Positions 27,237-37,649 of a DNA stretch of 64,000 nt are shown here, piece after piece. Every line of letters starts with the position of its first letter. The stretch's first letter is position 1. The DNA lies in the NCBI RefSeq assembly GCF_003337245.1, contig NZ_QPJE01000001.1, forward strand, positions 62,001-126,000, written 5' to 3'. Under the pieces are notes generated by a model that ran no database searches, was not told the DNA's origin, and saw only the letters and a program-made list of their open reading frames with translations. Both the position numbers and the translations under genes were made by a program. Source of the DNA: Halanaerobium sp. MA284_MarDTE_T2. Its GTDB lineage: Bacteria > Bacillota > Halanaerobiia > Halanaerobiales > Halanaerobiaceae.

Positions 27237-30086
27237 TTGTACATAAAAAATTTATATATAAAAGATTTTGGAGTTTTTCGCATTTCAGAGCTCAAAGGAC
27301 TTATTAACGGATTAAATATCATAGCAGGAGAAAATAGATCTGGGAAAACTACACTTTATAAAATTATGATGAACTTGGGTTATGGATTTAGTAAAAGTAT
27401 GAATATACCAAATCCAGTTAATAAATATGTTGTAGAAGCTGAAATAATAGATAATAGCAAGGATTACAGTGTACAGTTAAATGGATATTCTTATCCTGTA
27501 GTACAGATCAAAAATAATTGTGAGAGTAAAGCTTCAGTTAAAGAAACTGCAAAACAGCTTTACGGAAATATGGATGAATTTTCCTATCAAAATATTTTTG
27601 GAATTTCTCTGGATTATCTCCGCACATTTCCGGTTGGATATACAAATAAAGAACTGTCCAAACTTCAATCTGTTTTACTTGGAGCCGGATTTAATCAGAT
27701 AAAGAAAATTCCAGAAATTAAAGAAAAATATTTAAAAGAAGCTAAAAATATTGGTGGGAAATATGGCAGAACAAATGTAGGTGAATTTAAACCCTATTAC
27801 AGTCAAATAGATGAAGGATTGGAACTGCAGGAAAAAGCAAGAAATGATTTTGATAAATATTACAGGTTAAAAAAAGAGAGAAAAAGTTTGCTTCAGGAAA
27901 AAGAAGAAACCGCTTTAAAAATTGATCAAAAAAACAAAAAACTTGATTTTTTGGATCTGCTGGAAAAAAACTATGATTCAATTGAAAAATATATTAGATT
28001 AAACAATAAAATCAAAAAATTTTCTCATCTTAACAATTTACAGATTGATGAAGATAAAATAAAGGAGTTTGAAAAACTAAAAGAAAAATATAAAAATAAT
28101 AATAAAAAAATATCAGAGCTTAAACTGGAATCAAGAAAAGTTTCTTCTTTGAATATTGAAGAACAGCAGAATATTTTAAATTATAAGAATAAAATTATAC
28201 ATAATGCCAGAAATATATCATTTTATCTGGAAAAAATAAGGAACTGGTACAAATCTGCATCAGAATTAAAAGATGAGAAAACAGAAATTATATTTAGATT
28301 TGAAAGTTTGCTGAAAAAGAATTTAACTGTTTCTACAAAAATTGATAAGGTTGTGAATTCAGAAATTAAAAGATCACGGCAGGATGCTGAAAAAATTGAC
28401 AGTATAAAAATAGAGTTGGAGAGGCTGAATCTGGAAAAATATAGCAGAAAAAGAGAAATAGATGATTTAAAAGAAAAAATTGAAGAATTGAAAAATTATA
28501 CTTCAGATAAAAATTGGTTTTTTTATTCTATAGTATTCCTATTAATTTTAAGTGGAGTCTTACTTTCTTTTTTTAGTAAAAATTTTTTGGCTGGAATTTT
28601 ATCAATATTTTCTGGAACAATTATTTTTAGTTATTTTATATATAATGAATATAGGATTAAAAAGGAAAAAAAGAAAGATATCGAAGAAATAGAAGAAAAA
28701 ATAAAACTAGTCAAAATAGAAAAGGATAGTCTAGAAAAAAATATTTATGCTAAAAATAAAAAATTAGAAATTCTAAAAAATAGATTAGATATTTATAGTA
28801 AAACTTTCTGTTTTCCTGAAACATTAGATTACAGTTTATTACCTGATTTTATAGAGGAATTATATGATCTGCAAAATGACTGGAGAAATTGGCTCAGCAA
28901 TGCAAGAAAATTTAAAGACATCACTGATGATATTATTTCTAAATATAGAGCTGTAAATAACCTATATAGAGATCTTAATAAATTTAGTGATGATATATAT
29001 TGCTTTGATAAAATAAGTGAATTTAAAGCTTATAGGAAGCATACAGAGCAGTTTGATTTACTTGAAAAAATACTGGTATCTAATACAAAACTACAGAAAA
29101 TAAAAAATGAAAATAAAGAAATTATACATTCTATTAAATTAATATATAATGAAATTTTTAATGCAAGTAAATATGAAGATAGAACAATGATTGAAGATTT
29201 GGAAAAATTTTTTAATGATTATAATAAATTTTTGATTTTAAAAGAAGAAAAAAACAGTATCTATGAGAAGATAACATACAGTCTATATTCAAAAAATAAT
29301 GATGAAAATGGGTTTGATTCTAAAGGTGAATTTGAAAAAATTCTGCGGGGTTTTTCTCAATATAATTCTAAAAAAAGGGTAGAAACTGAAAGACAGGATA
29401 CAGAAGTTGAATTAAATAATCTTAAAAAAAGAAGAGAAAATATTATATTAAAAGTTCAGGATATTGAGACTAAATTAGAAGAATTAAGTTCCCAAGCAAA
29501 ATTAAATGAAAGCAGGAGGAAAATAGATAAAGCTCGAAAAAACCTAAAAAAAATTGCTGAAAAATATGCGGTAAATAAACTGGTTTGCTTAATATTGGAT
29601 AAACTTCAGGAAAATTTTTATAAAAAAATCAAAAATGAATATTTAAAAGATGCTTCAGAAATATTTAAATATCTAAGCAACAATGATTATAATAAGATAG
29701 TTCCTGGAGATGATCTCTGGTCTGCTAAATTGGATATTGTAAATAATGAAGATAAAATATATCACAGTCATGATATGCTGAGTAGAGGTACAGAAGAACA
29801 GTTGTTTTTGTCTGTAAGACTGAGTAGAATAAGAAAGATAAAACCACCACTTCCTGTTATTATTGATGATTCTCTGGTCAATTTTGATATTAAACATTTA
29901 GAAAGGGCTGTTGATGAAATTTTAAAATTGTCCAAACAAAATCAGATTATTCTATTGACCTGTCACAAAAGAATTATAGAAATGGTTGAGAAAAAAGAAA
30001 CAGCCAGCAAGAGCTGGCTGCTAAAAAAAGGCAGCTTTGTAGAAAAAGATTTAAAGCATCTTAAAAAAGAAATGTCTTTTTTTTAA
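27237..30086 (+). CDS. YhaN-like SMC/SbcC-type ATPase with membrane segment
   Basis: A 949-residue split ATPase. Walker A GENRSGKTT is at about residues 32-40, the ABC signature LSRGTEEQLFLS at about 848-859 and Walker B LPVIIDDSL at about 878-886. Long lysine- and glutamate-rich coiled coils fill the middle. They are interrupted at about 425-470 by two hydrophobic helices, which would place the coiled-coil tip in the membrane; this is the hallmark of the YhaN branch and differs from soluble SbcC/Rad50. The start is TTG at 27237, with GGGGAGG just upstream inside the end of the nuclease gene. With that gene it should form a DNA end-processing complex at the membrane. The gene ends 15 bases before the converging NhaC gene. 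Confidence 0.87.
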   Translation: MYIKNLYIKDFGVFRISELKGLINGLNIIAGENRSGKTTLYKIMMNLGYGFSKSMNIPNPVNKYVVEAEIIDNSKDYSVQLNGYSYPVVQIKNNCESKASVKETAKQLYGNMDEFSYQNIFGISLDYLRTFPVGYTNKELSKLQSVLLGAGFNQIKKIPEIKEKYLKEAKNIGGKYGRTNVGEFKPYYSQIDEGLELQEKARNDFDKYYRLKKERKSLLQEKEETALKIDQKNKKLDFLDLLEKNYDSIEKYIRLNNKIKKFSHLNNLQIDEDKIKEFEKLKEKYKNNNKKISELKLESRKVSSLNIEEQQNILNYKNKIIHNARNISFYLEKIRNWYKSASELKDEKTEIIFRFESLLKKNLTVSTKIDKVVNSEIKRSRQDAEKIDSIKIELERLNLEKYSRKREIDDLKEKIEELKNYTSDKNWFFYSIVFLLILSGVLLSFFSKNFLAGILSIFSGTIIFSYFIYNEYRIKKEKKKDIEEIEEKIKLVKIEKDSLEKNIYAKNKKLEILKNRLDIYSKTFCFPETLDYSLLPDFIEELYDLQNDWRNWLSNARKFKDITDDIISKYRAVNNLYRDLNKFSDDIYCFDKISEFKAYRKHTEQFDLLEKILVSNTKLQKIKNENKEIIHSIKLIYNEIFNASKYEDRTMIEDLEKFFNDYNKFLILKEEKNSIYEKITYSLYSKNNDENGFDSKGEFEKILRGFSQYNSKKRVETERQDTEVELNNLKKRRENIILKVQDIETKLEELSSQAKLNESRRKIDKARKNLKKIAEKYAVNKLVCLILDKLQENFYKKIKNEYLKDASEIFKYLSNNDYNKIVPGDDLWSAKLDIVNNEDKIYHSHDMLSRGTEEQLFLSVRLSRIRKIKPPLPVIIDDSLVNFDIKHLERAVDEILKLSKQNQIILLTCHKRIIEMVEKKETASKSWLLKKGSFVEKDLKHLKKEMSFF

Positions 30087-30100
30087 AAGAAAATATATTT

Positions 30101-31672
30101 TTAAGCTGTTTTTGTATTTTGAACTTCAGAAGATACATCTTCATTTTCTGCTTTAGAACCTGCAAAGTTTACGATTAAATAAAGTATCAATGTTCCAATC
30201 GGAAGTAAATAAAATGCTGATATGCCAAATCCAGCAGGTAGAAAACCGAATAAAGCTGCTACTGAACCTACAGTAAGCGCATAAGGCATTTGTGTTTTTA
30301 CATGATCCATATGGTCTACCGCAGATGCAGTTGAGGACATTATGGTTGTATCAGATATAGGTGAACAGTGATCTCCCATTACTCCTGCTGTTAAAACTGC
30401 ACCTATTGTTGGCAGCATAGGGATACCTATGGAATTTGCCAGTGGAATTGCTAGTGGCATTACTATAGCAACAGTTCCCCAGGAACTTCCAATAGTAAAA
30501 GCTATAAATGAAGAAATAATAAATAAAAGCATCGGAACTATTTCTGGCATTATATTTCCTTCCAGAATTCCTACAATATAATTAGCTGTACCTAAATCTT
30601 CTGTTATACTTCCAATTGACCAGGCAAGAATTAGTATCATACAGGCAATAAACATAGATTTTGCCCCATCAATCCAGCCGTTTAATATTTCCGAGATATT
30701 TAAAATTCTTCTACTTAATGCCAGAATACCTGCAATTAAGCTGCCGCTTATTGCTGCCCAGAGAAGAACAATACTTGCATCAGCATTCCCAAAAGCATCC
30801 TGAATAGAAGTACCTTCAGTCATTCCTCCACCATTGTACCAGAGGCCGATAATTGTAATCACTATAACACCCAAAATAGGTAAAAATGAATTGGAGAAAG
30901 AAAAACTCTGACCTTCAGGCTGTTCAATTTCTTCCATTTCCTGTGATACCATTGGTGTTGAACCGGGTCTTAATGTTTCACCAGTTTTTCTTGCTCTTTT
31001 TTCTGCTGCCAGCATCGGTCCAAAATCTTTTCCACTGAAAATAATGATTAGTGCAAAAACAAGAGCTAAAATGCTGTAAAATCTAAAGGGAATTGTCTGT
31101 ACAAAAGTTGCATATGCATTTAGTTCAATATTTAATGCATCAAATCCATCTTTAATCAAACCTACTTCAAAGGCTATCCAGGTTGAAATAGGAACAATAC
31201 TCGAAACAGCTGCTGCCGTTAAATCAACCAGAAAGGCAAGCTTTTCTCGAGAAATTTTCATTCTATCTGTAATCGGGCGCATTGTGTTACCTACAATTAA
31301 TGTATTGGCATAATCATCAAAGAATATCAGTACCCCCATAAGCCAGGCGGCAAATTGAGTTTTTCTAATTGACTGAGCTTTTCGGGCAACATATTCACCA
31401 ATCGCCAGTATCCCTCCAGCTTTATTAATAATTCCTATCATTCCTCCCATAGCCAGTAAAAATAATATAATCCCGGCATTCCATGAGTCGGCTAGAGAGG
31501 CCAGTATATAATTATCAAGTGTATGCATAAAAGCAGTAATTGGATTAATGTTAATTATAACTGCACCAGCAAAAACTCCAAGAAATAATGATAATATAAC
31601 TTCCTTACTCCACCAGGCAAGCAGAATTGCCAGCATTGGTGGAATCAGTGACAAAATTCCATAATTATCCAT
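30101..31672 (-). CDS. NhaC-family antiporter, candidate lysine transporter (LysW-like)
   Basis: A 523-residue membrane protein with about 11-12 hydrophobic helices. Family motifs include FDDYANTLIVGNTM in the first half and MGDHCSPISDTTIMSS in the second half, both characteristic of the NhaC superfamily. Such proteins exchange sodium for protons or take up amino acids. Comparative work on lysine regulons predicted that NhaC-type proteins behind lysine riboswitches (LysW) carry lysine. This gene is the last of the operon that starts with a lysine riboswitch, so lysine transport is a reasonable inference but is not shown by the sequence. An AGGAAGGATG site precedes its ATG. A charged C-terminal tail ends the protein. 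Confidence 0.88.
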   Translation of the reverse strand: MDNYGILSLIPPMLAILLAWWSKEVILSLFLGVFAGAVIININPITAFMHTLDNYILASLADSWNAGIILFLLAMGGMIGIINKAGGILAIGEYVARKAQSIRKTQFAAWLMGVLIFFDDYANTLIVGNTMRPITDRMKISREKLAFLVDLTAAAVSSIVPISTWIAFEVGLIKDGFDALNIELNAYATFVQTIPFRFYSILALVFALIIIFSGKDFGPMLAAEKRARKTGETLRPGSTPMVSQEMEEIEQPEGQSFSFSNSFLPILGVIVITIIGLWYNGGGMTEGTSIQDAFGNADASIVLLWAAISGSLIAGILALSRRILNISEILNGWIDGAKSMFIACMILILAWSIGSITEDLGTANYIVGILEGNIMPEIVPMLLFIISSFIAFTIGSSWGTVAIVMPLAIPLANSIGIPMLPTIGAVLTAGVMGDHCSPISDTTIMSSTASAVDHMDHVKTQMPYALTVGSVAALFGFLPAGFGISAFYLLPIGTLILYLIVNFAGSKAENEDVSSEVQNTKTA

Positions 31673-31713
31673 ATTTAAACATCCTTCCTGTTATCTTTTA
31701 TAAACTAGTTATT

Positions 31714-33306
31714 TTAATTCCAGTAAACTTTTCCATTTATAGATACAGCGGCAACCTTTATATTTCTAATTTCTTCTTCTGCAGTCAAAAAGGGATTATT
31801 ATCTAATATAACAAAATCAGCTTTATAATCCTTTTTAATCTGACCAATTTGATTATCCATAAAACAATTATATGCAGCATTTTTTGTGTAAAGTTTAAGA
31901 GCTTCCTGGACAGTTAATTTTTCCCATGGTTGCCACCCTCCAGCTGGATTATAATCTCTGTCCTGTCTAGTAACAGCACAGGAGATACCCCAGATTGGAT
32001 TCGGAGATTCTACAGGACAGTCAGAACCACCTGCAGCATTAATACCAAGATTAAACATTGTCTTCCAGGCGTATGTTCCAATTTCTCTTTCCTTACCAAT
32101 TCTTTTAGAAACAATAGTCCAGTCAGTGGCAGTAAAAGGCGGCTGAATGTCAGCCTGCAGATTAAGTTCTGCCATTCTGTTCAATAAATCATAATCAGTA
32201 ATCTGACAGTGGATTATTCTATTCCTCAAACCACTTCCATATCTTTTTTGAAGTCTCTCCATAATATCAATAAAGAGAGCAACAGTTCTATCACCAATTG
32301 CATGACAGGCAATCTGCATTCCATTTTTTAGAGCTATTTCTGATAAATTATATAATTTCTGTTTTCCATAGACAAGTTTTCCAAATTGATTTTCTTCATC
32401 AGCATAACTTTCCCGTAAAGCAGCAGTTCTTGCTCCCAGAGAGCCATCAGCTAGCACTTTTAGAGGTCCAAGAGTTAAGTAGTCATCATAATAAGTTATC
32501 AGATTATTTTTTAAAAATTCATTAATTTCTTCAGGGGTTTTCAGCCTAAGCTGTAGATTAAATTTAATAGGTAATTTATTTTCATCGGCCAGCTCATAAT
32601 AGGCCTGCAGTACTTTCTGAAAATCGACATTTGCACTATCAAGATCATCTGTTTGAACAGCAGTTATACCTTTTTTTCTCAGCATTTTTCCGGCTTTAAC
32701 TAGATAATTTTTTATATCTTCAACAGATAGAGGTGGCATATTTTCATAAATTAAATCCATTGCTTTTTCTGCAAAAATTCCATTAGGATTTTCATTATCA
32801 TCCAAATAGATTTTTCCACCATCAATATATGTATCAGAATCTATATCAATTTTTTTTAAAGCAGCCGAATTTGCAGTTAATAAATGTCCACAGGTTCGGG
32901 TCAAAACAATTGGTCTTGATGTTGAAATTTTATCAAGATCACATCTTGTAGGCATTCTTTTTTCAATAAAATTTTCCTGATTCCAGCCTCTGCCAAAAAT
33001 CCATTCATTTTCTTTCGGTTTTTTTTCTTCAATAAATTTTTGTACAGCTGAAATCATTTCTTCAATTGAATTTACACTGTTTAAATCAACCATATCCAGT
33101 GTCATACCATAGGCTAATACATGCATATGACTGTCATTAAATCCAGGCAGAAGAGTTTGTCCGTTTAGATCAATTAACTGGTATTCATCTTTGATTTTAG
33201 TATTGAAATCAATTATCTTATCATTTTCTATAAGCACATTATTTACAGTAGGATTTTTTTCATCCATTGTATATATATAACCATTATAAAAGAGCTTTTT
33301 TGTCAT
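31714..33306 (-). CDS. Amidohydrolase, YtcJ-like
   Basis: A metal-dependent hydrolase of the amidohydrolase-3 group, about 530 residues. The N-terminal metal motif GFNDSHMHV (about 56-64), DGSLGARTAAL (about 290-300), ACHAIGDRTV (about 336-345) and GSDCPVESPNP (about 437-447) are all present, so the enzyme looks active. Substrates of this group are N-acyl or amide compounds. In this operon a peptide or N-acyl amino acid brought in by the ABC transporter is an appealing substrate (inference). The ATG at 33306 is preferred because AAAGGA lies 8 bases upstream; another ATG at 33315 overlaps the dppC stop (ATGA). No signal peptide. Confidence 0.85.
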   Translation of the reverse strand: MTKKLFYNGYIYTMDEKNPTVNNVLIENDKIIDFNTKIKDEYQLIDLNGQTLLPGFNDSHMHVLAYGMTLDMVDLNSVNSIEEMISAVQKFIEEKKPKENEWIFGRGWNQENFIEKRMPTRCDLDKISTSRPIVLTRTCGHLLTANSAALKKIDIDSDTYIDGGKIYLDDNENPNGIFAEKAMDLIYENMPPLSVEDIKNYLVKAGKMLRKKGITAVQTDDLDSANVDFQKVLQAYYELADENKLPIKFNLQLRLKTPEEINEFLKNNLITYYDDYLTLGPLKVLADGSLGARTAALRESYADEENQFGKLVYGKQKLYNLSEIALKNGMQIACHAIGDRTVALFIDIMERLQKRYGSGLRNRIIHCQITDYDLLNRMAELNLQADIQPPFTATDWTIVSKRIGKEREIGTYAWKTMFNLGINAAGGSDCPVESPNPIWGISCAVTRQDRDYNPAGGWQPWEKLTVQEALKLYTKNAAYNCFMDNQIGQIKKDYKADFVILDNNPFLTAEEEIRNIKVAAVSINGKVYWN

Positions 33307-33311
33307 TTTAA

Positions 33312-34136
33312 TCATCCTTTTTTATGTGGATCCAGATAGTCTCTAATACCATCACCCATTAAGTTTAATCCTAAGATTGTCATCACTATAGCAATACCTG
33401 GATAAATCATAATCCAGGGAGCAGTCCATATATAATCCCTGCCATTACTCAACATAGTTCCCCAACTGGGAGTTGGAGGTTGAGCTCCTATACCCAGAAA
33501 ACTCAAACTGGATTCTATTAAAATTGCTGAGGCTACTCCAAAAGTTGCAATAACTAATACCGGTCCAATAATATTGGGAAGAATATGCTTAAAAATGATT
33601 CTGAAGTTTGAAGCTCCAATAGCTCTGGCTGCAGAAATATATTCCTTTTTTTTAATAGAAAGTGTCTGTGCTCTTGTGACACGGCAGGTATAAGTCCAGA
33701 GAGTAAATCCTAAAGCAATAAAAATATTAATCAAACCCGGTCCCAGCACTGCCATAATTGCCAGAGCCAAAATTAGTGGAGGAATAGAGAGCATAATATT
33801 TGTAATATTCATTATAAGATCATCTATTTTTCCACCAGCATATCCAGCAATAAGTCCCAGGCTAACACCTATAAAAGTGTTAATTATTTGAGTAATTATG
33901 CCGATACTCAAAGAAATTCTTGCTCCAAAAATTATTCTGCTGAAAATGTCGCGTCCCTGTCGGTCGGTTCCCAGCTTAAATTCACTGCCGGGAGATTCCA
34001 GGCTGTTTAATAAATTGGCATCATCAATAGGATCATAAGGAGCAATAAGCGGGGCAAAAACTGCAGCAAATATGACAATAACTGTAATAAATAAACCAAT
34101 TGTAAGCTGTGGATTTTTCTTTATTTTTTTAATCAT
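33312..34136 (-). CDS. Peptide ABC transporter permease (DppC-like)
   Basis: Inner-membrane permease subunit of 274 residues. The N-terminal helix is followed by PLIAPYDP and GTDRQGRDIFSRII, typical for the DppC/OppC type, and the EAA loop that contacts the ATPase is EYISAARAIGASNFRI (about residues 165-180). About six membrane helices are visible. It is downstream of the DppB-like gene by 11 bases. No ATP-binding subunit is encoded in this operon. The substrate could be peptides; the riboswitch suggests lysine-containing ones. Confidence 0.92.
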   Translation of the reverse strand: MIKKIKKNPQLTIGLFITVIVIFAAVFAPLIAPYDPIDDANLLNSLESPGSEFKLGTDRQGRDIFSRIIFGARISLSIGIITQIINTFIGVSLGLIAGYAGGKIDDLIMNITNIMLSIPPLILALAIMAVLGPGLINIFIALGFTLWTYTCRVTRAQTLSIKKKEYISAARAIGASNFRIIFKHILPNIIGPVLVIATFGVASAILIESSLSFLGIGAQPPTPSWGTMLSNGRDYIWTAPWIMIYPGIAIVMTILGLNLMGDGIRDYLDPHKKG

Positions 34137-34147
34137 ATATAGGCCCC

Positions 34148-35080
34148 CTAACTATAAGAAATACGTGGATCTAAAAATGCATATAAAATATCAACAAATA
34201 AATTAATTAAAATAAAGCAGAGTGCAAAGACCAAGATACATCCCTGTATAGCAGGAATATCTCTCTTGAAAATCGAATTAACAACAAGGTCTCCAATTCC
34301 AGGCCAGGCAAAAACTTTTTCCACCACAACGGTATTGGCAAAAACTGTCCCCAGCTGAAGACCCACTATAGTTATAATAGATAGTAATGAATTTCTAAAA
34401 ATATGTTTAATATTTACAGCAGAATTTGAAAGTCCTTTAGCGCGGGCAGTTCTAACATGGTCATGATTAATTTCATCCAGAACAGCAGACCTGGTAGTTC
34501 TTGCAATAAGAGCTATCATGGGAATACTTAAAGTTAAAGCGGGCAGAATAATAAATAGAAAAGAACCATCTCCAGTTCCTGATGCTGGAAGAAAATTATG
34601 TATAACTGCAAAATAATACATAAGCATTAAACCAAGCCAGAATCGGGGCATTGAAATTCCTAAAATAGCAATTATCATTAAAATTACATCGATCAAAGTA
34701 CCTCTATATAATGCTGCCATAAATCCAAGAAAAATCCCGACAATAACTGCTGCAATAAATGCTGTGATAACAATTTTGATGGTGCTGAATAATTTTGGAA
34801 TAATTAAATCAATAACTTTATTTGACGTTCTATAAGAGGTACCCAGATCACATCTTAGGAGATTTCCCATATAAGTCAAATATCTAATATGAAGTGGTTT
34901 GTCCAGTCCCCATTTTGCTCTGATATTTGCAATTACCTCTTCATTTTTGGCCATTCTTAAATCTCCGGCCAGTAAGGCAGCATCTCCTGGAAGAACATTA
35001 AGAACAACAAATAATAGTGTTAGTAAAATTAAAATTGCTGCTGCAGATTGTGCAATTCGTCTTATTACATATATTAACAT
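34148..35080 (-). CDS. Peptide ABC transporter permease (DppB-like)
   Basis: Partner permease of DppC, about 310 residues with six membrane helices. The N-terminus MLIYVIRRIAQS is characteristic of DppB, followed by LPGDAALL and the DKPLHIRYLTYMGNLLRCDLG-type segment (named here by its first residues only). The EAA loop is HVRTARAKGLSNSAV (about 209-223). I set the start at the ATG at 35080 by this homology. A GTG at 35128 would add 16 residues but it lies inside the AGGAGG site. Between that site and the ATG there is a 9-bp hairpin, described separately. Confidence 0.9.
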   Translation of the reverse strand: MLIYVIRRIAQSAAAILILLTLLFVVLNVLPGDAALLAGDLRMAKNEEVIANIRAKWGLDKPLHIRYLTYMGNLLRCDLGTSYRTSNKVIDLIIPKLFSTIKIVITAFIAAVIVGIFLGFMAALYRGTLIDVILMIIAILGISMPRFWLGLMLMYYFAVIHNFLPASGTGDGSFLFIILPALTLSIPMIALIARTTRSAVLDEINHDHVRTARAKGLSNSAVNIKHIFRNSLLSIITIVGLQLGTVFANTVVVEKVFAWPGIGDLVVNSIFKRDIPAIQGCILVFALCFILINLFVDILYAFLDPRISYS

Positions 35081-35086
35081 TGTTAT

Positions 35087-35123
35087 TTTCGAGAGCAGAA
35101 AGATTATCTCCCCACTCTCGAAA
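35087..35123 (-). other. Hairpin between the dppA and dppB coding regions
   Basis: CTCTCGAAA (35115-35123) and TTTCGAGAG (35087-35095) form a perfect 9-bp stem with a 19-base loop. It sits between the AGGAGG site and the best DppB start. It could bring the ribosome site close to the ATG or set the dppA/dppB ratio. Confidence 0.5.
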
Positions 35124-35134
35124 TTCACCTCCTG

Positions 35135-36766
35135 CTATTTGCGCGGACTGGAATCATCAATCCAGATTTTATGAAATGGCTGATACGTCATTTCTAAAGC
35201 ATTTCCTGTAATGCCATGAACCCAGGGCTTATGAATCATTACAGCCTTGTTGTAGTTAAAAAACCAGACTCCAGGATCTTCTACCAGAACTTTTTCTGCC
35301 ATCTGTACATATTCTATACGCTGTTCTAAATCGACAGTATTCATTGCTTTTTCAATATATTTATCAAATTCTTTGTTGTGGTAATTTCCATAATTCCCTG
35401 CATTTCTGGGTATTTCTGACCAAAATGTTGTTGCAAGCTGTTTTACTGGAGAAGAATGCCCTCCCAGCGAGAAAATAAAGGCCTCAAAATCTCCCTGTCT
35501 TGCTCTGGTAGCCCAGGTAGCACCATCTACTACTTCAGAAGTGATTTTAAAACCAACATCCTCTAAATAAGGTCTTGCAGCTTCAATAATTGGTATACCC
35601 CAGGAAGGATTTGTGGTGCCTATAATATGAATTTTCAGTGGATTTTCCGGTGTATATCCTGCTTCTTCCATTAAACTTCTTGCTTTTTCTGGATTGAATT
35701 CATATGCTTCTAATTCTGGATTGTAAGCTATACTACTCGGCGGCAGCCATCCTGTTGCAGCAAATGCTTTTCCATTTAATAACCTATCCACTATAAGCTG
35801 TTTGTCAATGGCATAGTTAAATGCCTGTCTAACTCTTTTATCTTTAAATTTTTCTTTATCCATATTAAACATCACATTTCTTATCCATACTTCAGCAACT
35901 TCAATAAGCTGGTCTTCATACTGAGGATCATTTTTGAAAACTTTATATTGAGCTGGAGAAACAAGATCAACATCCAGCTGTCCAGATCTAAAAGAAGCAG
36001 TGCGTGTAGATGCTTCAGGCATAACTAAAAATTTTATCTGATCAAGATATGGACGGCCATTATAATAATCTTCAAATGCTTCTACTATTACATTTTCGTC
36101 CTGGTTCATTTCTACAAACTGGAAAGGACCTGTTCCAACTGGATTCATGCCGAAATCATTTCCAACCTTTTCAGTATAATCTTTTGGCATAATTGCTGCC
36201 AGTTCATCTGCCATAGAATTTAAAAATCCAACATCCAGTTCAGAAAGTGTTATTTTGAGTGTATAATCATCAATAATTTTTAATCCAGATAGGTGTTCAG
36301 TTTTCCCTTCTGCATACTCTTTTGCTCCAGCAATGCCCTGCACTGTAGGCACAGCGATTGAAGCCTGCTTTGGATCCAGAATTCTTTCAAATGTAAACTG
36401 AACATCCTCGGCTGTAAAAGCTTCACCATTGTGAAAAGTTACACCTTCTCTTAAATAAAATGTATAAACTAATCCATTTTCACTTATTTCCCATGATTTT
36501 GCTAGATCTGGTTCTATTTTCCCCGAAGATTCGTTATAGCGAACAAGATTGGAGAAAATAGCTTTTGTTATAATCGCCTGTGTTACATCACCTGATTGAC
36601 CTGGTTCAAGAGTCGTTATACTCTGCTGATAAGGAAGAGGATAATTTAAAGTTCCTCCATATTTTCCACTTTCTTCTGCCAGGACTGAGATTGAGAAACT
36701 GAACATAACCATTATTATTATTGAAATAATAAAAATCGAATTATTAGCTCTGTTTATTCTGTGCAT
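35135..36766 (-). CDS. Peptide ABC transporter substrate-binding protein (DppA-like)
   Basis: Extracytoplasmic solute-binding protein of family 5, 543 residues. An N-terminal signal peptide (hydrophobic residues 11-28) ends in SVLA-EE; there is no lipobox cysteine, so the anchoring differs from the lipoprotein form usual in Firmicutes. The body contains RYNESSGKIEPDLAKSWE, FTAEDVQFTFERI and RVRQAFNYAIDK (about residue 312 onward), all typical of peptide-binding proteins. A good AAAGGAG site precedes the ATG. It is first in the operon dppA-dppB-dppC-amidohydrolase-NhaC behind the lysine riboswitch. The bound ligand is not known. Confidence 0.92.
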   Translation of the reverse strand: MHRINRANNSIFIISIIIMVMFSFSISVLAEESGKYGGTLNYPLPYQQSITTLEPGQSGDVTQAIITKAIFSNLVRYNESSGKIEPDLAKSWEISENGLVYTFYLREGVTFHNGEAFTAEDVQFTFERILDPKQASIAVPTVQGIAGAKEYAEGKTEHLSGLKIIDDYTLKITLSELDVGFLNSMADELAAIMPKDYTEKVGNDFGMNPVGTGPFQFVEMNQDENVIVEAFEDYYNGRPYLDQIKFLVMPEASTRTASFRSGQLDVDLVSPAQYKVFKNDPQYEDQLIEVAEVWIRNVMFNMDKEKFKDKRVRQAFNYAIDKQLIVDRLLNGKAFAATGWLPPSSIAYNPELEAYEFNPEKARSLMEEAGYTPENPLKIHIIGTTNPSWGIPIIEAARPYLEDVGFKITSEVVDGATWATRARQGDFEAFIFSLGGHSSPVKQLATTFWSEIPRNAGNYGNYHNKEFDKYIEKAMNTVDLEQRIEYVQMAEKVLVEDPGVWFFNYNKAVMIHKPWVHGITGNALEMTYQPFHKIWIDDSSPRK

Positions 36767-36850
36767 TGTAAAACTCCTTTCAGATTTTTGATGGTTTTTT
36801 AATGTGAGTGTGAATTGATTTCTAATTACTATCTACTCTCGGCTTCATAT

Positions 36851-36877
36851 TCAGCGAATCTGTTTAAGCTTGTTCAT
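36851..36877 (-). CDS. Candidate 8-codon leader peptide, MNKLKQIR
   Basis: A minimal reading frame between the riboswitch terminator and dppA: ATG AAC AAG CTT AAA CAG ATT CGC TGA. It has a strong ribosome site, GGGGGGAG, ending 5 bases before the ATG. The peptide has two lysines and one arginine. TTTTTGAT and ATCAAAAA, about 130 bases apart, flank the frame and could pair. It may be a translated leader or a chance frame. The remaining leader (36767-36930) has no other gene. Confidence 0.35.
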   Translation of the reverse strand: MNKLKQIR

Positions 36878-36930
36878 TTTTACTCCCCCCAAAATTAGTT
36901 GTAAATGCACTATCAAAAATATTCAAGAAA

Positions 36931-36960
36931 TAAAAAATACCCGGCGATTTAGCCGGGTTA
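36931..36960 (-). terminator. Riboswitch expression-platform terminator
   Basis: On the minus strand ACCCGGC pairs with GCCGGGT (7 bp, loop of 6) and is followed by ATTTTTTA. It lies 45 bases downstream of the lysine aptamer. A 16-base palindrome, GGTTAATATATTAACC (36956-36971), overlaps its upstream arm and may be part of the switching structure. I could not resolve the antiterminator pairing by eye. Confidence 0.8.
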
Positions 36961-37004
36961 ATATATTAACCAGAAAAAATCACCTCTTCCAATATCCGTT
37001 TTAT

Positions 37005-37192
37005 GTGAGATAGCGCAACATTATAAGCCCGGATTAGAACTTATAATGACAGTCCTGCATATATTATATACAGACCCAGCAGCAGTTTTTTGAACCGAAA
37101 AAACTGTGCTTCGGCAAAACAGCCTTTCACTCTAAAGCAATTAGGTTCTTAAATCTTTAGAGTTACTGATCAGTTCTGCGCCTCTACCTCAC
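37005..37192 (-). ncRNA. Lysine riboswitch (L box) aptamer
   Basis: The minus strand carries the conserved L-box blocks in order: GAGGTAGAGGCGC, the AGTAAC segment, GTGAAAGGCTGTTTTGCCGA, CTGCTGGGTCTG, GCAGGACTGTCA and GCGCTATCTCAC. The closing helix P1 is GTGAGGTAG (37192-37184) with CTATCTCAC (37013-37005), 9 pairs with one G:U. The 188-nt aptamer has the usual five-helix size. It binds lysine and, in the standard mechanism, favours termination when lysine is abundant. It controls the dppA operon. The remaining part of the 36767-37714 gap holds the terminator, promoter and repeats listed separately. Confidence 0.95.
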
Positions 37193-37248
37193 CCAGAATT
37201 GGATGAGGCATTTTTCTATTAAGTTTAACAGTATTTTATTTGTATAAA

Positions 37249-37277
37249 AGTATAACTGACATAATAATTTTTGTCAA
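37249..37277 (-). promoter_or_regulatory. Sigma-A promoter of the lysine-riboswitch operon
   Basis: On the minus strand TTGACA (37277-37272) is a perfect -35 box, followed after 17 bases by TATACT (37254-37249). Transcription would start near 37242, about 50 bases upstream of the aptamer. Confidence 0.8.
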
Positions 37278-37374: not shown

Positions 37375-37402
37375 ACTGGACTTTCCCCATTTTTTATATA
37401 CT

Positions 37403-37611
37403 GCTGCAAAAAGGGGAGATACAGGAATATTGAAATTTTTAGTCAATGAATCTTAACGAAATGAAGGAAGAAATAGGGTTGAACTGCAGGATGGAGTGAG
37501 CTAATCATGAGTCAGGAGGACTCATTGATTAGTGTGCCCTATTTCACACCCGAATTGAGTTTTAGATAAATCTAAAAATTTCGTTGATGACTAAAGCCCC
37601 CTTTTTGCAGC
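37403..37611 (+). repeat. 209-bp structured inverted-repeat element, copy 1
   Basis: The ends pair perfectly over 14 bp: GCTGCAAAAAGGGG (37403-37416) with CCCCTTTTTGCAGC (37598-37611). Inside are GAAATTTTTAG with CTAAAAATTTC (37432-37442 and 37572-37582), GAAATAGGG with CCCTATTTC (37470-37478 and 37537-37545), and a central hairpin CTAATCATGAGTC with GACTCATTGATTAG (37501-37532). About 22 unpaired bases lie left of the central hairpin, leaving room for a further arm. No reading frame of note. It is homologous to 40912-41119 in reverse orientation, with shared blocks AATCTTAA, GAAATA, CTAATC, CGAATT and CTTTTTG. It lies between divergent dppA and the patatin gene. It may be a structured RNA or a MITE-like element; I do not recognise a known family. 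Confidence 0.75.
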
Positions 37612-37649
37612 TTGAAAATAAATTTTGGGGAAACTCCTAATTTTATTAA
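37598..37649 (+). repeat. Right copy of the ~50-bp direct repeat
   Basis: Matches 37326-37374 and overlaps the right terminal arm of the 209-bp element. It continues about 38 bases beyond the element (AAATTTTGGGGAAACTCC and following). Confidence 0.6.

Follow-up and report, generated by a model that had tools for sequence, protein, structure and literature searches.

A lysine riboswitch ahead of peptide-type transporter, amidohydrolase and NhaC-type carrier genes in Halanaerobium

The five-gene operon

The DNA analysed here, referred to as the window, is a 64,000-nucleotide stretch of the genome of Halanaerobium sp. MA284_MarDTE_T2 (NZ_QPJE01000001.1, positions 62,001 to 126,000). It contains a lysine riboswitch followed by five genes, all on the minus strand (window positions 30101-37277). 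The genome, designated G000, comprises 2,471,551 bases in 69 contigs and is 99.79% complete; the G+C content of the window is 32%. The first gene encodes an Opp/Dpp-type substrate-binding protein of an ATP-binding cassette (ABC) transporter (35135-36766; PF00496, 320 bits) and is followed by genes for two permeases, B (34148-35128; PF00528) and C (33312-34136; PF00528 and OppC_N). The fourth gene encodes a YtcJ-type amidohydrolase of the Amidohydro_3 family (31714-33315; PF07969, 366 bits) and the fifth, an NhaC-type, LysW-like carrier (30101-31672; PF03553, Na_H_antiporter, 221 bits). Here, LysW likeness is defined by the Pfam domain and by membership of a sequence cluster found under lysine riboswitches.

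With the predicted starts, the gaps along the operon are 6, 11, -4 and 41 bases, which is compatible with a single transcript. The true start of permease B may be approximately 16 codons downstream of the predicted one, as the NikB and Opp-B profiles begin at residue 17 at the earliest. The original prediction had allowed that an internal promoter might split the hydrolase and carrier genes from the riboswitch. The best promoter-like sites within the operon on the minus strand (33311 and 32375, 10/12 each) are within chance level, although such a promoter may still exist.

The names dppA, dppB and dppC, initially given to the transporter genes, are too specific. The three proteins miss the NCBIfam Dpp equivalog cut-offs (204.7 bits against 1005 for DppA, 219.4 against 590 for DppB and 263.5 against 483 for DppC) and reach none for Dpp, Opp or Nik, the nearest being permease C against Opp2C (297.3 against 300). 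In addition, gene calls and Pfam show no ATPase gene within 30101-37277, and the ATPases would therefore have to come from elsewhere. The carrier scores 44 bits against the NhaC equivalog TIGR00931, which has a cut-off of 370.

The riboswitch leader

The aptamer is located at 37003-37194 on the minus strand, where the RF00168 model is matched over positions 1-182 of 182 (117 bits, gathering score 30, E 1.4e-30). Nothing else in the window reaches the gathering score, and the match predicts that the RNA binds lysine. Upstream lies a predicted promoter with the sequence TTGACA-17-TATACT (37249-37277, minus strand; 11/12 in a consensus scan). As the whole scan returned 26 such sites against a mean of 31.7 in shuffles, fewer than chance, this promoter is backed by its own score and position alone. 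Downstream, the hairpin scan places an intrinsic terminator hairpin with a T-run at 36939-36958 (minus strand). The predicted order of promoter, lysine aptamer and terminator ahead of binding protein, two permeases, amidohydrolase and carrier is thus borne out.

Two strands outside the aptamer may take part in the switch. The first, TGCCTCATCC (37201-37210, minus strand), is 5' of the aptamer and could pair with the 5' side of helix P1 over 10 bp without a gap, a match that was reached in 0 of 200 shuffles. Of 31 leaders (24 from the same family and seven from other families of the order), 30 have a potential pairing of this kind of 9-10 bp and the remaining one of 8 bp, while 3 of 31 more distant leaders reach 9-10 bp. 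The second, GAGGTGATTT (36977-36986, minus strand), is a candidate antiterminator identified from an 8 bp pairing in constrained folds: GGTGATTT within it can pair with AAATCGCC on the 3' side of the terminator. Within this strand, GGTG.TTT is invariant across an alignment of five leaders. A terminator-like hairpin is found at most 120 bases from the aptamer in all 24 leaders of the family, including 11/11 before synthesis genes, a count made without a shuffled control.

Folding was evaluated as constrained energy states with an assumed transcript start. The lowest-energy fold, in which P1 and the terminator coexist, is at -103.3 kcal/mol. When the 5' strand of P1 is instead drawn into an alternative hairpin, the energy is -98.7 kcal/mol with the terminator and -97.4 kcal/mol with the antiterminator, and P1 together with the antiterminator is at -99.2 kcal/mol; the constrained states are thus only 4-6 kcal/mol from the lowest one. 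This folding and the conserved hairpins fit an OFF switch, in which lysine would end transcription. An ON-type switch, with lysine needed for expression, was considered since the GAGGTG strand can also form 6 bp with the 3' side of P1. The idea was dropped for two reasons: lysine synthesis operons of the family are preceded by leaders that share the strand 5' of the aptamer and have a terminator-like hairpin (11/11), and the fold with P1 and terminator has the lowest energy.

Several further observations concern the leader. A TGCCTCATC-like strand just 5' of the aptamer, outside the Rfam match, shows some changes that by eye seem to be compensatory. This strand or its flank can pair over at least 10 bases with the strand in the aptamer-terminator spacer in 11 of the 31 near leaders (again without a shuffled control), and it may be part of the switch. 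Between the terminator and the first gene (36939 to 36766) is an eight-codon frame, MNKLKQIR, with a strong ribosome-binding-like site; by eye, the leaders of G003 and G001 have no counterpart. Upstream of the promoter, at about 37379-37638, is a dispersed repeat of ~260 bases with complementary ends, which looks like a small non-autonomous mobile element. Among the stretches fetched from this genome it has six near-identical copies (the window, L146, L149, L151, L153 and L155).

Lysine riboswitch loci in related genomes

A search of 61 genomes with RF00168, in which filters may lose weak matches, gave 69 matches across 38 of them. From these, 63 matches were examined as 62 loci, the window included and a tandem pair in G042 counted as one; two matches of G057, three of G058 and one of the three in G056 were left out. 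The first gene under the riboswitch is for lysine synthesis at 33/62 loci, an NhaC-type carrier at 24 (twice with the carrier behind another, unclustered frame) and an Opp-type binding protein at four; the remaining locus is unreadable at a contig end. As a rule, therefore, the initial statement holds that these riboswitches mostly govern synthesis or single transporters. The carrier sequence cluster is present under 26 of the 62 loci, and in the window and G003 it is the fifth gene. The riboswitch type is well known, and it is the gene set below it that is unusual.

The four loci with an Opp-type gene first all belong to the same family. The order ABC set, amidohydrolase and carrier recurs under a lysine riboswitch in G003 only (L077), a second species, with the same five genes; the proteins are 73-74% (binding protein), 78% (permease B), 94% (permease C, over 182 residues) and 61% (amidohydrolase) identical to those of the window. 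In G001 (L074), a binding protein and two permeases without ATPases, 52-69% identical to those of the window, have their own lysine riboswitch, and the carrier sits under a separate one. The fourth locus is in the window's own genome (L004, C8:29500-45000), where a second lysine riboswitch is followed by a full peptide-type ABC operon, made up of genes for a binding protein, two permeases and two ATPases. The transporter proteins of the window are only 24-48% identical to their L004 counterparts, and the two riboswitch-controlled sets are therefore not recent copies.

The operon is flanked upstream by a divergent patatin-like gene and downstream by a convergent gene for an AAA-domain protein, followed by one for an SbcD-like metallophosphoesterase. 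A terminator-like hairpin after the operon (29999-30022, minus strand; hairpin scan) is within the convergent gene. The riboswitch-carrier locus of G001 likewise has patatin-like and SbcD/AAA-like neighbours, judged from their N-termini. The shared flanks point to an older unit of riboswitch and carrier, to which the ABC and amidohydrolase genes would have been added later.

The ABC set and its ATPases

The binding protein has matches at 1e-130 or better in 5 of the 59 genomes of the class (G000, G003, G016, G001 and G023). In G016 the related ABC set is followed by an M20-type hydrolase, so named from its likeness to two scored proteins of G000, and an amidohydrolase. G023 has the ABC set without either hydrolase, on a contig of 6.6 kb. 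As neither the G016 nor the G023 stretch has an Rfam match at gathering score, the ABC set also occurs apart from the riboswitch.

The genome of the window has 17 stretches that match Opp-type sets. In a count of adjacent genes that covered 13 sets, and from which L152 (contig end) and L155 (fragmented) were left out, an ATPase pair adjoins five (L004, L145, L149, L151 and L154) and none adjoins the other eight (the window, two in L144, L146, L147, L148, L150 and L153). L147 has a weaker ATPase-like gene ~2.5 kb on and L144, a long and distant one. The missing ATPases are therefore ordinary in this genome and were dropped as an oddity of the window. The ATPases of L004 would be natural candidates to serve the window set, and four other pairs exist.

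The amidohydrolase and lysine fermentation

At E <=1e-60, the amidohydrolase is matched in 25 of 61 genomes, and the full-length alpha subunit of lysine 5,6-aminomutase (PF09043 above 800 bits) in 28; lower-scoring hits to PF09043, which probably represent the related ornithine mutase, were excluded. Both are present in 23 genomes and neither in 31, whereas five have the mutase only (G012, G021, G041, G045 and G047) and two the amidohydrolase only. The latter, G000 and G003, are the two in which the amidohydrolase is under the riboswitch. The association has a Fisher p of 7.6e-10, a value not corrected for common descent; in the genus of G002-G013, two genomes have both genes, one the amidohydrolase only, one the mutase only and eight neither.

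Of the 23 genomes that have both genes, 12 carry them on a single contig at a distance of 2.9-12.3 kb. The G019 cluster meets the NCBIfam cut-offs for 3,5-diaminohexanoate dehydrogenase (KDD), the cleavage enzyme KCE, the ammonia lyase KAL, both lysine 5,6-aminomutase subunits and lysine 2,3-aminomutase; its KamB-like and ornithine-racemase-like genes score below their cut-offs. Neighbours at other loci were named by sequence clustering with G019. These neighbourhoods (G002, G008, G019 and others) support a link between the amidohydrolase family and lysine fermentation in relatives. In a 25-row tree, the proteins of the window and G003 group with those of G002 and G008, which are linked to fermentation genes (support 95/93), and then that of G016 (100/99), which is the amidohydrolase of the ABC-M20-amidohydrolase cassette. 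Window and G003 pair with each other only weakly (82/60), and the tree does not establish the 11 linked rows as one clade against the unlabelled rows.

The predicted model of the amidohydrolase has a mean predicted local distance difference test score of 80.7. Its closest structures, 3icj and 3igh, are both described as uncharacterised, and weaker matches are to Lys/Arg carboxypeptidases and prolidases; the structure search pointed to no substrate. At title level, the literature gave nothing relevant on an amidohydrolase with lysine fermentation or 3-keto-5-aminohexanoate cleavage.

Lysine supply of the genome

The search for lysine synthesis genes, like the second riboswitch, concerns DNA outside the window. 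No dapA match was found in G000, whereas the other 13 genomes searched all have one (12 over the cut-off). Nothing in G000 exceeds the cut-off for dapB, and the dapB of G002 as query found G003 but not G000. The only dapB match, at 20.7 bits, was rejected as the 2,4-diaminopentanoate dehydrogenase of an ornithine cluster. An ornithine degradation cluster in this genome (L140, C30) holds 2,4-diaminopentanoate dehydrogenase, ornithine-racemase-like and ornithine-mutase-like genes, two M20-type hydrolases and an AgcS carrier. For dapF, G000 alone was searched and gave no match with a model that recognises only 9 of 14 controls. The absence of dap genes from G000 or G001 may reflect a missing stretch of a draft assembly.

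In contrast to the dap genes, lysA is present in G000 (443.7 bits). It lies near an L-Ala-D/L-Glu epimerase-like gene (235 bits, cut-off 500) and near a protein that weakly resembles murein endopeptidases (about 22 bits). As this stretch has no Rfam match, lysA was not seen under a riboswitch. The MurE of G000 carries a DNPR motif, which we take to be a mark of diaminopimelate addition.

Other genomes have kept other parts of the pathway. G001 has no dapB over the cut-off and has its dapA beside dipicolinate synthase genes; its lysA comes after genes for a binding protein and two permeases that belong to the same superfamily. G002 (L157) keeps dapA and dapB and has no lysA match above 17.9 bits. 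Its sole lysine riboswitch is over the carrier, and none was matched on its dap operon. Together, G000-G002 suggest that the riboswitch targets vary with the lysine genes that are left in a genome.

Interpretation

On balance, we lean towards reading the five genes as a lysine-acquisition operon under an OFF-type, terminator-controlled lysine riboswitch, in which the amidohydrolase would free lysine from an imported conjugate. At low lysine, RNA polymerase would read through the terminator and two import routes would be made. In one, the NhaC-type carrier is predicted to take up free lysine. In the other, the Opp/Dpp-type importer, with borrowed ATPases, would take up a lysine-containing compound, either a peptide or an N-acyl lysine, from which the amidohydrolase, as a putative N-acyl-lysine deacylase, would release lysine inside the cell. 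At high lysine, P1 would form, the antiterminator strand would be unavailable and transcription would end. The salvage role first proposed for these genes stands in so far as they are co-regulated and linked to lysine acquisition: the carrier is a usual target of the riboswitch, the amidohydrolase occurs in fermentation neighbourhoods and similar leaders front synthesis operons. The substrates in that proposal, lysine-bearing peptides or N-acyl lysine for the importer and hydrolase and lysine for the carrier, are predictions.

Several findings weigh against this reading. The fold states are not cleanly separated, and P1 with the antiterminator (-99.2 kcal/mol) comes out slightly better than the alternative hairpin with the antiterminator (-97.4 kcal/mol). 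The ABC set does not always come with lysine control: in G016 and G023 it has no Rfam match nearby. In addition, 11 of the 23 genomes with both mutase and amidohydrolase have no close linkage, the genes being on different contigs or far apart; the association ignores phylogeny, and the 1e-60 threshold admits paralogues. As lysA is kept, diaminopimelate may also be an additional source of lysine.

An alternative is murein-peptide salvage, in which the ABC set would import diaminopimelate-bearing murein peptides, LysA would make lysine from the released diaminopimelate and the amidohydrolase would cut another bond. The dpp-ykf operon of Bacillus is a murein peptide operon with an Opp/Dpp-type importer, a feature shared with the window; in G000, lysA and the epimerase-like gene near it are outside the window operon. 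Salvage of this kind would explain why lysA is kept near epimerase-like and weakly endopeptidase-like genes where dapA, dapB and dapF were not found, and it agrees with the position of lysA in G001 behind transporter genes and with the MurE motif. We nevertheless consider it unlikely, as the lysA stretch has no Rfam match and as relatives of the amidohydrolase (G002, G008, G019 and others) accompany lysine fermentation genes.

The ABC set and amidohydrolase might also be general scavengers of peptides and N-acyl amino acids, captured by the older carrier riboswitch, with lysine as one product among several. The related G016 cassette without a riboswitch match, the many Opp-type sets of the genome (17 stretches; 8 of 13 judged without adjacent ATPases) and the frequency of the carrier as first gene (24/62) agree with this. 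The G001 set has a riboswitch of its own, however, and the amidohydrolase family has a separate link to lysine, which makes general scavenging doubtful. A connection with beta-lysine, which is mentioned as an osmoprotectant in PMC9337991, is brought to mind by the lysine 2,3-aminomutase genes that adjoin amidohydrolase relatives. It appears very improbable, because the neighbours in G019 are lysine fermentation genes and salt adaptation of the host is a guess.

Known lysine riboswitch regulons share parts of this arrangement with the lysine-acquisition operon proposed here. Transporters of the lysW (COG1757), lysP, yvsH and lysXY types, as well as oligoendopeptidase F, are described under lysine riboswitches (PMC5584792), and in Clostridioides difficile such riboswitches lie over an NhaC-like gene and over yfcC with an M20D amidohydrolase (PMC11477304). 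The lysW and NhaC-like cases match the window in RNA family and, broadly, in carrier family (PF03553), whereas the window has four extra genes between riboswitch and carrier. The yfcC locus likewise combines a carrier with an amidohydrolase-type enzyme, but both are of other families, and no ABC genes are mentioned in that account of it. The Mycoplasma case also puts a peptide-processing gene, oligoendopeptidase F, under the riboswitch; there it is a peptidase and a membrane protein, and that description mentions no Opp-type ABC set. The main text of PMC5584792 has no word starting with "peptide" or "halanaerob". At the level of titles and the starts of abstracts, the literature gave no lysine riboswitch over an oligopeptide ABC transporter and none for Halanaerobium, and we make no claim to a first report of this gene order.

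A wider and more tentative possibility is that, in a lineage without the diaminopimelate route, the riboswitch regulon has turned wholly from synthesis to scavenging. Here, the ATPases of the L004 operon may serve both ABC sets, and the amidohydrolase would be a hydrolase of lysine conjugates that has gone unrecognised and that feeds fermentation in relatives as well. The window operon and its relatives suggest how riboswitch regulons follow gene content, with targets that change according to whether lysA and dap genes are present, as seen in G000-G002 beside relatives that have both. Lysine conjugates would in turn be a testable substrate class for this amidohydrolase family, since the closest structures solved so far are described as uncharacterised.

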